The position numbers were made by a program, and so were the translations under genes. 64,000 bases of DNA, from assembly GCF_006715395.1 (NCBI RefSeq), contig NZ_VFNC01000002.1:1178001-1242000 (forward strand), read 5' to 3'. Below are positions 13,594 through 16,187 of the stretch, piece after piece (position 1 is the stretch's first letter; the number at the start of each line of letters is the position of its first letter). The notes below the pieces were generated by a model. The model saw nothing but the letters and a program-made list of their open reading frames with translations. It was not told the DNA's origin and searched no databases. This DNA comes from Streptomyces sp. SLBN-31 (GTDB taxonomy: Bacteria; Actinomycetota; Actinomycetes; Streptomycetales; Streptomycetaceae).

Positions 13594-14301
13594 TCAGCGC
13601 CTCGCCGACGGGCGGTCCGAGAGTCCGACGCCCAGGGCGAGTTGGCCCGCGGCATGCCGGAAGAACGCCTCCCGGTCCTCGACGACCCGGTTGAACTGGC
13701 CGAACAGCTCGAACCCCACCAGCCCGAACAGCTGCGCCCAGGCGGCGACCAGCGCCGCCGCGACCTCGGGCGGCAGATCGGGGGCGATGTCGGCGGCGAG
13801 GCGCTCGGCCTCCGGGCGCAGTTCGGCGGCCAGCGGGGGGAAGGTCACGCCGGGGTTCTTGATCGCGTCGCGCACGATGCCGATCAGCAGCAGGCCGACC
13901 CGGGAGGCGGCGGGGACGGTGGTCTGCGGGGCGACGTAACCGGGCACCGGTGAGCCGTAGATGAGGGCGTACTCGTGGGGGTGCGCGAGGGACCAGGCGC
14001 GTACGGCTTCGCAGACGGCGATCCAGCGCCGGGTGGGCTTGGCGTCGGAGACGGCCTCGGCCGCCGCCTCGGCCGCCGCGCCCAGGGAGTCGTAGGCGTC
14101 GATGATGAGCGCCGTCAGCAGGTCGTCGCGGCTGGGGAAGTACCGGTAGAGGGCGGAGGAGACCATGCCCAGCTCGCGGGCGACGGCCCGCAGCGAGAGC
14201 TTGGTCGCGCCCTCCGAGGCGAGTTGCCGGCGGGCCTCGTCCTTGATGGCGGCGGTGACTTCGATCCGGGCTCGGGCGCGGGCGCTGTGGGGGGTACTCA
14301 T
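13594..14301 (-). CDS. TetR-family repressor
   Basis: A 235-residue regulator. The N-terminal helix-turn-helix reads LSLRAVARELGMVSSALYRY followed by FPSRDDLLTALIIDAYD, the usual TetR pattern. The C-terminal region (LFGLVGFELFGQFNRVVEDR) resembles the TetR_C_13 type ligand domain. ATG 14301 was chosen since CACACT lies seven bases upstream, so it is probably leaderless. It is divergent from the nitroreductase-like gene at 14477, and the gap holds five phased copies of a palindromic motif that this protein most likely binds, controlling both genes. Confidence 0.93.
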   Translation of the reverse strand: MSTPHSARARARIEVTAAIKDEARRQLASEGATKLSLRAVARELGMVSSALYRYFPSRDDLLTALIIDAYDSLGAAAEAAAEAVSDAKPTRRWIAVCEAVRAWSLAHPHEYALIYGSPVPGYVAPQTTVPAASRVGLLLIGIVRDAIKNPGVTFPPLAAELRPEAERLAADIAPDLPPEVAAALVAAWAQLFGLVGFELFGQFNRVVEDREAFFRHAAGQLALGVGLSDRPSARR

Positions 14302-14324
14302 GCGTGGCAGTGTGCCACGAAAAC

Positions 14325-14455
14325 AGAGCAGTGCACACAAACGAGAGCGCTGCACAAAAAAGAGAGCAGTGCTCTTGCTTTGGATCGGCGATCCGGTGCA
14401 GACTGCTCCTCGTAGGGAAAACCGAGAGCACCGCTCACAAAAGAGAGCGCCGCTC
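14325..14455. promoter_or_regulatory. Five phased operator-like palindromes between tetR and the ddn-like gene
   Basis: Five copies of AGAGCNNYGCWC start at 14325, 14344, 14363, 14425 and 14444. The first three and the last two are each spaced by exactly 19 bp. Site 3 (AGAGCAGTGCTCT) is the most symmetrical. Each is preceded by an A-rich stretch. TTGCTT (14375-14380) and CAGACT (14399-14404, spacing 18) form a candidate forward promoter lying between the two groups; site 1 falls in the likely tetR promoter. Confidence 0.75.
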
Positions 14456-14476
14456 ACCCACTCCATGGGGGACATC

Positions 14477-14932
14477 ATGTCCGCGCACGTCCACGTCCAG
14501 AAGCCCGGTTGGTTCACCGTCAACGTCTTCAACCGCGCGGTCGCCTGGATGACCCGCCGCGGCCTCAGCGTCTGGGGCTCCCGGGTCCTGGCGGTGCGCG
14601 GCCGCAAGAGCGGCGAGTGGCGCACCACCCCCGTCAACCTGCTGACCGTCGACGGGCAGCAGTACCTGCTCGCCCCGCGCGGTCACGTCCAGTGGACGCA
14701 CAACATGCGCGCCGCCGGCGGCGGTGAACTGCGCCTGGGCAAGAACGTGGACGTGTTCACCGCCGTCGAGGTCGCCGACGACGACAAGGTCCCGCTGCTG
14801 CGGGCCTACCTCAAGCGCTGGAAGGCCGAGGTCGGAGTCTTCTTCAACGGCGTGGGCCCGGACTCCCCCGACGCCGACCTGCGCCGCATCGCGGCCGACC
14901 ACCCCGTCTTCCGGATCACCGTCACGAACTGA
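14477..14932 (+). CDS. Deazaflavin-dependent nitroreductase family protein (Ddn-like)
   Basis: A 151-residue split-beta-barrel protein of the DDN/F420H2-dependent reductase family. Signature parts are VLAVRGRKSGEWRTTPVNLL and the strand TVDGQQYLLAPRGHVQWTHN, with Gly-Arg-Lys-Ser-Gly and WxxN as in cofactor-binding members. It probably reduces a small electrophile or quinone with F420 in the cytosol. The ATG at 14477 follows GGGGGAC at a good distance; an ATG at 14465 is less likely. Its 3' end overlaps the convergent flavoprotein gene by 11 bp. Control by the divergent TetR is strongly suggested by the operator array. Confidence 0.9.
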   Translation: MSAHVHVQKPGWFTVNVFNRAVAWMTRRGLSVWGSRVLAVRGRKSGEWRTTPVNLLTVDGQQYLLAPRGHVQWTHNMRAAGGGELRLGKNVDVFTAVEVADDDKVPLLRAYLKRWKAEVGVFFNGVGPDSPDADLRRIAADHPVFRITVTN

Positions 14933-16187
14933 CCTCGGCGCCCTCATCGCCCACCGGGCCGGCCGTCACGCCGCCGGCCGGACGCCGGTCCAGCGCGCTC
15001 AGGGCGCGATGCGCCATCGGGTGGGTGCGCACGAGCTCGCCGAGGGACGTCGAACCCTGGGTGATCTCCTTGAACGCGTTCCACGCGGGCCGGAACCCCG
15101 TCAGCACCGCGTGGAACAGACCGGGACGGCGCTCGAAGACCGTCAGCATCCGTTTGCCGACGCTCATCTCGACACCGAGCCCCGCCTTGATCGCGAACGC
15201 GTAGTTCAGGGCCTGCCGCCGGGCGTCCACCGCGTCGTGCGCCTCGGCGATCCGCACCGCCCACTCTCCCGCGAGCCGCCCGGAGCGCAGCGCGAAGGAG
15301 ATGCCCTCGCGCGTCCACGGCTCCAGCAGTCCGGCCGCGTCGCCGCACACCAGCACCCGGCCGCGCGACAGGGGCGAGTCGTCGGCCCGGCAGCGGGTCA
15401 GGTGGCCGGAGGAGATGCTCGGCTCGAACCCGGCGAGACCGAGCCGGCCGATGAACTCCTCCAAGTACCGCTTGGTGGCCGCGCCTTCGCCGCGGGCCGA
15501 GATCACACCGACCGTGAGCGTGTCCCCCTTGGGGAACACCCAGCCGTAACTGCCGGGCATCGGCCCCCAGTCGATCAGGACCCGCCCCTTCCAGTCCTCG
15601 GCGACGGTCTCGGGCACCGGGATCTCCGCCTCGAGGCCGAGGTCCACCTGGTCGAGCTTGACGCCGACGTGCGCTCCTATCCGGCTCGCGCTGCCGTCCG
15701 CGCCGACCACGGCCCTGGCGAGCAGCGTCTCGCCGCCCTGCAGGACCACGGCGACCGTGCGCCGGTCGGGGACCGCCGAGCCGTGCTGCTCGACGCGCTG
15801 CACGGTGACGCCGGTCCGCAGCTCGGCGCCCGCCTTCTGCGCGTGCTCGACGAGCTGCTGGTCGAACTCGGGCCGGTTGATCAGCCCGAAGAGCATCTGC
15901 CGGGAGCGGCGGGTGCGGGTGAAGCGGCCGTTGTTGGAGAAGGTGACCGCGTGCACGCGGTCCCGCAGCGGCAGCTCGAAGCCGGGCGGCAGGCTGTCGC
16001 GCGAGGGCCCGATGATGCCGCCGCCGCACGTCTTGTAGCGCGGCAGCTCCGCCTTCTCCAGCAACAGCACACGCCGTCCCGCCACCGCGGCCGCGTAGGC
16101 GGCCGAGGCCCCCGCGGGTCCCGCGCCCACCACGACGACGTCCCACACCCGCTGCACGTCGTCCGCCGAAGAGTTCTCGCTGCTCAC
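14922..16187 (-). CDS. Geranylgeranyl-reductase-family FAD oxidoreductase
   Basis: A 421-residue flavoprotein. The FAD-binding Rossmann motif is VVVVGAGPAGASAAYAA at residues 17-33, followed by LLEKAELPRYKTCGGGI, and the second FAD motif is VLVCGDAAGLLEPWTREGIS. The phrase GPMPGSYGWVFPKGDTLTVG is typical of the geranylgeranyl reductase family, which saturates prenyl chains such as those of menaquinone. I infer a menaquinone or lipid role only from the family. The start is GTG 16187. It is divergent from the dipeptidase gene with a 130-bp gap. Confidence 0.9.
   Translation of the reverse strand: MSSENSSADDVQRVWDVVVVGAGPAGASAAYAAAVAGRRVLLLEKAELPRYKTCGGGIIGPSRDSLPPGFELPLRDRVHAVTFSNNGRFTRTRRSRQMLFGLINRPEFDQQLVEHAQKAGAELRTGVTVQRVEQHGSAVPDRRTVAVVLQGGETLLARAVVGADGSASRIGAHVGVKLDQVDLGLEAEIPVPETVAEDWKGRVLIDWGPMPGSYGWVFPKGDTLTVGVISARGEGAATKRYLEEFIGRLGLAGFEPSISSGHLTRCRADDSPLSRGRVLVCGDAAGLLEPWTREGISFALRSGRLAGEWAVRIAEAHDAVDARRQALNYAFAIKAGLGVEMSVGKRMLTVFERRPGLFHAVLTGFRPAWNAFKEITQGSTSLGELVRTHPMAHRALSALDRRPAGGVTAGPVGDEGAEVSS

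Follow-up and report, generated by a model that had tools for sequence, protein, structure and literature searches.

A 19-bp lattice of predicted TetR operators across the divergent promoters of tetR and a ddn-like gene in Streptomyces

TetR-family repressors acting through several sites are already known, as the consulted parts of the work on EthR, SCO7222, ActR and CprB make clear. In mycobacteria, dimers of EthR are reported to bind the ethA/ethR intergenic operator cooperatively, as a homo-octamer, and to repress both genes (PMC5403819, in the part consulted). For SCO7222/SCO7223 and ActR of Streptomyces coelicolor three palindromic operators in a divergent intergenic region and three EMSA complexes are described (PMC3511530, in part), and QacR, CprB and SlmA place two dimers on one DNA site, with cooperative binding by CprB and QacR, a shared site of 22-32 bp for CprB, QacR, CgmR and MS6564, and CprB dimers on opposite sides (PMC4150764, in part). 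The MerR-like Streptomyces protein BldC, in turn, forms cooperative multimers on a variable number of promoter repeats (PMC5859096, in part). A sequence-only reading of the locus treated here had described it as going beyond the one site that TetR regulators commonly have, which was an overstatement, since Tn10 TetR has two operators and SCO7222 and ActR have three (PMC3511530, in part).

The locus lies in a window of 64 kb (the whole stretch of DNA that was analysed) from Streptomyces sp. SLBN-31, and resembles the EthR-ethA/ethR system in its divergent pair of tetR and oxidoreductase genes. It departs from that system in having one conserved 11-bp palindrome per putative dimer, an exact 19-bp pitch, a number of sites that varies by whole units and quantised promoter distances. 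With SCO7222 and ActR it shares a TetR-family repressor and several palindromes in a divergent intergenic region, but the SCO7222 operator TGGAACGNCGTTCCA is unlike the lattice motif, and the sections consulted describe neither a fixed pitch nor a copy-number series for SCO7222 or ActR (PMC3511530). Unlike the shared sites of QacR, CprB and SlmA, as far as the cited part of that work goes, the palindromes found here are separate and repeat at 19 bp, and successive dimers would spiral round the helix. The repeats of BldC are AT-rich, direct and bound head to tail (PMC5859096, in part), whereas here the protein is of the TetR family and the units are palindromes with half-sites GAGCR/YGCTC, and a direct-repeat filament of the BldC type was rejected on these grounds. 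Judged by title, the open-access papers listed included no report of the motif or of quantised operator ladders, and the core spellings led, among the matches listed, to papers that by title concern eukaryotes or viruses.

We consider it probable, at about 0.72, that TetR dimers stack side by side at 19 bp and cooperatively cover both promoters, extra units tuning repression. The tetR product scored above the Pfam cut-offs for both PF00440 (44.3 bits) and PF13305 (89 bits), as a TetR_C_33-type repressor should, and its closest solved TetR structures by sequence are Rv1816 (5d1r, E 4.6e-34) and SCO4313 (2oi8, E 7.1e-30). Matches to tetR at E<=1e-50 occur in 180 genomes out of a sample of 246 from the genus Streptomyces, and tetR and the ddn-like gene are divergent in 80/80 loci, these being the best 80 of 516 confirmed tetR matches. 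The ddn-like gene, which has a second ATG at 14477, is followed by a convergent gene of the geranylgeranyl reductase family (14922-16187, minus strand) that overlaps it by 11 bases, and quinone or isoprenoid chemistry may be common to the two. Plasmid iterons were discarded as an explanation, no rep gene being present among the neighbours examined (tetR, the ddn-like gene, a two-component pair and the geranylgeranyl reductase family gene).

Table 1. Features of the tetR/ddn region, with positions in the window.
Feature	Position	Strand	Description
tetR	13594-14301	-	Repressor of 235 aa with TetR_N and TetR_C_33; residues 45-55 form the recognition helix, GMVSSALYRYF
Predicted tetR -10, CACACT	14309-14314	-	Ends about 7 nt before the tetR ATG; putative function
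Predicted operator 1, AGAGCAGTGCAC	14325-14336	+	tetR-proximal; overlaps the putative tetR -35 region; in-phase slot -38
Predicted operator 2, AGAGCGCTGCAC	14344-14355	+	Slot -19; kept in distant genera too
Predicted operator 3 (anchor), AGAGCAGTGCTC	14363-14374	+	Flush against the ddn -35; strongest slot
ddn -35, TTGCTT	14375-14380	+	TTGCTT in 45/81 regions; TTGAC-type in most distant loci
Degenerate in-phase predicted operator, GATCGGCGATC	14383-14393	+	Exactly +19 from the third copy; in the spacer between -35 and -10
ddn -10, CAGACT	14399-14404	+	18-bp spacer from -35; in the 62-bp gap between site groups
Predicted operator 4, AGAGCACCGCTC	14425-14436	+	About +15 from the putative start site
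Predicted operator 5, AGAGCGCCGCTC	14444-14455	+	19 bp past operator 4; in the 5' UTR
ddn-like gene	14465-14932	+	F420H2-dependent quinone reductase / TIGR00026 family (PF04075 + TIGR00026); presumed target gene

The sequence-only reading had reported five copies of AGAGCNNYGCWC phased by 19 bp, and both statements hold: the copies stand on the plus strand at the starts of operators 1 to 5 (Table 1), with start-to-start spacings of 19, 19, 62 and 19. It had overlooked a sixth, degenerate copy in phase with the others, and its arrangement of three plus two copies is specific to this strain. The sites are palindromes of the form GAGCR-S-YGCTC on a 19-bp lattice between tetR and the ddn-like gene, so that at the level of sequence operator-like palindromes are present at the divergent promoter, as expected for a TetR-family repressor. 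In the 64-kb window AGAGCNNYGCWC has 6 matches, the sixth being the palindrome at 14364-14375 read on the minus strand, whereas 100 shuffles averaged 1.14 and never exceeded 4. The whole genome contains 53 matches, near the 46 of the reversed control; a single copy is therefore uninformative, and the evidence lies in the 19-bp phasing. Two terminator-like hairpins flagged on the minus strand (14363-14375 and 14445-14459) are operators 3 and 5 themselves, which disposes of terminators, and RNA hairpins are unlikely because slots upstream of the putative ddn start site are conserved as well.

A candidate promoter had also been placed between the upstream and the downstream copies, in agreement with a conserved TTGCTT-18-CAGACT at 14375-14404. 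In all 81 regions compared (the window and the best 80 of 516 tetR matches, 333 bases each) the ddn -10 is CASACT (78), CATACT (2) or CACAAT (1), and it follows the GCTC of the anchor after 24 nt in 71/81 regions and after 23 nt in 10/81. A sigma-70 consensus scan found no promoter, and the assignment is made from conservation across the regions, not from that scan. On the other side, the predicted tetR -10 recurs in orthologues (motif AGTST, 80/81 of the same regions), and its closeness to the ATG suggests that the tetR mRNA is possibly leaderless.

The 80 loci added to the window come from named genomes and are related to one another. Sites number 2-10 per region at <=1 mismatch to GAGCNNNGCTC in 81/81 regions, and perfect sites number one in 3 regions, two in 47 and three to five in 31. 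Close relatives that carry this gene pair might have lacked the copies, which would have counted against the sequence-only reading, but all 80 best loci have the pair and at least two copies at <=1 mismatch. With 2 to 10 copies across the 81 regions, the symmetry of three upstream and two downstream copies is not conserved. Within 80 bp we counted 406 pair distances, mostly 19 (115), 38 (63), 57 (36), 53 (33) and 76 (22), and 236 of them are multiples of 19; each of 20 block-shuffled controls of the 81 regions had 0-4 pairs, with 19 and 38 absent among them, and these controls, with the shuffles of the window, rule out chance. Spacing within groups is nearly exact, 38 bp being found 63 times and 39 bp five times. 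Over 80 regions, the four best of up to 250 offsets from the anchor were 0 (mean 7.88 of 8, in part by construction, as anchors were picked by the same motif), -19 (6.19), -38 (5.09) and +19 (4.80), against a background with mean 2.20 and sd 0.88; one region (L061) lacked an anchor, and where six others offered more than one candidate, the last was used. Between -35 and -10 the +19 slot takes the form of a degenerate GATCNNCGATC, of which GATCGGCGATC is the version in the window, and on these scores the lattice is best described as slots of graded quality rather than as three plus two sites.

Between the tetR -10 and the anchor, the distance changes in steps of 19 bp, as 36, 55, 74, 93, 112 and so on, and its value modulo 19 is 16-18 in 76 of the 80 loci measured (L025 was not measurable) and exactly 17 in 58. 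In two species whose TetR proteins are 97% identical (L055 and L027), this distance differs by 57 bp. On a quick tetR tree with 76 labelled loci (L025, L043, L065, L069 and L086 unlabelled), in which 28/78 inner branches are poorly supported, rung number is weakly clustered, with at least 30 changes against a shuffled mean of 34.2 and values as low in 3/200 shuffles; well-supported branches alone force fewer changes, for example 7 for the commonest class. The 19-bp units thus appear to have been gained and lost repeatedly, for which no exact number is claimed. Near-copy neighbouring units occur in L014 and L050, and therefore tandem duplication or slippage is indicated.

Beyond this set, a first group of 40 distant loci (L273-L312; 37 belong to other genera, and the 3 Streptomyces loci include two second copies) was drawn from 114 genomes with a match, and a further 40 loci all belong to other genera, the two groups together representing 77 of the 84 matched non-Streptomyces genomes. 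At least one site at <=1 mismatch is present in 38/40 loci of the first group and at least two in 33/40, with ddn adjacent in 5/40, and in the further 40 loci at least one perfect site is present in 39 and at least two in 37. In the first group, the gene that replaces ddn beside tetR often resembles at its start what we take, by eye, to be either a protein like NAD-binding epimerases or a small membrane protein. Among the distant loci, 68 could be anchored (L292, L311 and L312 had been set aside, and an anchor was missing from 9 of the remaining 77), and in these the best offset was 0 (mean 7.99 of 8, again in part by construction) and the second best -19 (mean 5.44). For the first 40 loci, anchor and downstream site are 34-35 bp apart in 13 and 40-53 bp apart in 19; in the other 8 the downstream site is unassigned, and the arrangement of anchor plus downstream site was not found. 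In the 13 loci at 34-35 bp, the centre of the downstream site by our reading always begins with AT, which gives GAGCAT at the expected -10; such a centre occurs once among the 19 loci at 40-53 bp. These counts suggest a basic plan of three dimers, of which the first sits at -35, the second covers the -10 or the bases shortly after the start, and the third is set back by 19 bp, a ladder that Streptomyces would have lengthened.

The exact spacing of the sites could in part come from tandem duplication rather than from contact, and TetR might bind its sites independently, several operators raising occupancy and the 19-bp spacing being a relic of duplication, as would fit the near-identical neighbouring units of L014 and L050 and the frequency of 19-bp steps. 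We regard this as rather unlikely, because the spacing stays exact though spacers and even operator letters diverge (L399, L296), off-by-one distances are as rare as the counts at 38 and 39 bp show, and the -19 slot is second best in the 68 distant anchored loci, although the majority of them contain few sites. Spacing kept so strictly at 19 bp speaks for contact between adjacent dimers, in favour of the part of the sequence-only reading that suggested cooperative binding; the loop around the promoter, which it also suggested, is unsupported. With several sites at a fixed pitch, the intergenic region may carry several dimers, as it would for an EthR-like cooperative multimer.

In the stacked arrangement that we infer, TetR would bind as a dimer to each GAGCR-S-YGCTC palindrome, e.g., GAGCAGTGCTC. 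The strongest operator would be the one that abuts the ddn -35; at least one other lies shortly after the start site, the promoter spacer contains a weaker one, and copies in the same phase extend back over the tetR promoter. Neighbouring dimers would pack side by side at the fixed 19-bp pitch, about 1.8 turns, in a chain winding round the helix, and cooperative coverage of the whole interval would occlude the promoters and shut off both ddn and tetR until a ligand releases TetR. The 19-bp units, gained or lost via tandem duplication or slippage, would tune the strength or the steepness of repression.

The repression loop proposed earlier, in which upstream and downstream TetR dimers touch and the promoter is looped out, appears very unlikely. 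Sites do flank the promoter in all 81 regions, and the modal distance between anchor and downstream site, 53 bp (30/81), corresponds to 5.05 turns. Against the loop, these gaps spread over 52-62 bp in 80/81 regions, about one whole helical turn, in contrast to the near-exact spacing within groups, so that the two groups of sites do not keep to a single helical face, and in 13/40 distant loci the gap is of 34-35 bp with the downstream site on the expected -10. DNA loops of 53 bp are moreover very stiff.

The sites are very probably operators of the adjacent TetR, as judged from the distribution of both. When non-Streptomyces genomes were searched with DNA alone, 21 out of 354 contained the 19-bp pair, and by hand comparison 16 of these have it directly at the start of this tetR, the remaining five being G368, G377, G419, G465 and G612. 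No tetR match reaches E<=1e-50 in 66 Streptomyces genomes, although some carry a diverged, partial or broken tetR (L343, L345, L348), and in 59 of the 66 no ddn match reaches E<=1e-20 either. Three of the 7 ddn homologues in these genomes have a tetR match next door and perfect sites, and the four without an adjoining tetR have no perfect site, L346 and L349 showing a single one-mismatch site each and L347 matching only the last half of Ddn, with its true upstream region outside the view. In L343 (G224) the tetR beside the ddn homologue matches in two separate pieces and looks broken or misassembled; the sites are still present. Since sites accompany tetR where ddn is not adjacent, and ddn without an adjoining tetR has no perfect sites, ddn was rejected as the partner of the array.

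A further link is offered by the recognition helix. Residue 48 is Ser in 157/160 loci, with GAGC half-sites in 150, mixed ones in 5 and no site in 2, and Ala, Thr or Pro in three, with GAAC in L312 and L399 and GAAC/GATC in L296. The replacement of GAGC by GAAC or GAAC/GATC thus separates 3/3 non-Ser48 loci from 0/157 Ser48 loci (nominal Fisher p 1.5e-6, which serves as a guide only, the loci being related and the true p larger); in the three exceptional proteins, residues neighbouring 48 differ too. L296 and L399 keep the 19-bp pair despite their changed half-sites. This covariation ties the motif and the TetR together. No site was present upstream of the five paralogues listed, which have about 36-39% identity and other recognition helices (e.g., TVQALYHYF, SGPALYRYF), nor upstream of the tetR paralogue in the genome of the window.

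Could the lattice nonetheless belong to another DNA-binding protein, or to a dispersed family of palindromic repeats of Streptomyces merely found beside tetR? Arrays with the same core and pitch at other loci favour this, as does the genome G184, with 19-bp arrays and no tetR match at E<=1e-8, and by hand count at least one 19-bp pair is present in 15/66 genomes without a tetR match at E<=1e-50. The core, however, covaries with residue 48 of TetR, the pattern lies at this tetR in 16 of the 21 non-Streptomyces genomes that contain it, and sites track tetR rather than ddn, and we deem the possibility very unlikely. Since similar arrays exist elsewhere, including in G184, a 19-bp lattice need not mean this TetR, and the dispersed arrays speak against a simple one-regulator story. 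The pair pattern was found in 138/246 Streptomyces genomes, at many places besides tetR, with 10 matches in all for the reversed control. The loci fetched for dispersed pairs contain 45 array placements, 40 of them distinct: by rough ORF calls, 16 are within an ORF, 11 between tandem, 10 between convergent and 2 between divergent ORFs, and 1 is at the end of its locus. By hand count, the close pairs listed for 6 of 16 genomes, one of these in part, number 75 at spacings of 12-41 bp, six of the pairs being at the tetR locus itself; 34 are at 19 bp and 22 at 38, and among the 19 at other spacings nine derive from one tandem repeat in G234.

Individual arrays are diverse. The genome of the window has GAGC palindromes at 39- and 19-bp spacing (C2:2749615-2749702; L126 3016-3103) inside a gene that we assume, by eye, to be of the Gfo/Idh/MocA type, and the array recurs in several other Streptomyces. 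Among 29 relatives, selection on this intragenic array was not detected, as the site-making codons GCA (8/29) and GCT (12/29) are unconstrained and the top windows of synonymous conservation of the gene fall outside the array. A 19-bp pair also lies inside an ORF call of the same genome (C1:1754702-1754731; L167), and similar sequences are listed for several other Streptomyces; in three of these the gene is presumably XdhC-like, again by eye. In G047, G050, G105 and G184, 19-bp arrays are found upstream of one gene type (L198, L200, L202) and beside another (L192, L196, L199, L204), which we take, from the protein beginnings, to be cydA-like and Hen1-like, respectively. In L186 (2678-2916, G021:C15) a stop codon is immediately followed by a lattice of 19-bp slots with 9 perfect sites, which lies between convergent ORF calls and is not an ordinary promoter operator. 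In L170 (2908-2970) and L174 (3143-3367) palindromes alternate at 19 and 14 bp inside an ORF call, in units of 33 bp or 11 codons, and are possibly a coding repeat. More speculatively, and with considerable doubt on our part, TetR may form an extendable lattice of side-by-side units that grows rung by rung at 19 bp, the dispersed arrays, among them those located between convergent genes, being landing strips for the same or a sister TetR, either silencers or chromosome-organising sites instead of ordinary operators.

The locus and its relatives amount to a natural dose series, with the same repressor and promoter and 2 to 10 phased operators in named species, which would allow a direct measurement of how cooperativity depends on the number of operators and on their spacing. 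The covariation of residue 48 with one operator base would provide a simple, testable specificity code. Were the dispersed arrays bound as well, a TetR of one gene would be a genome-wide DNA-coating protein.
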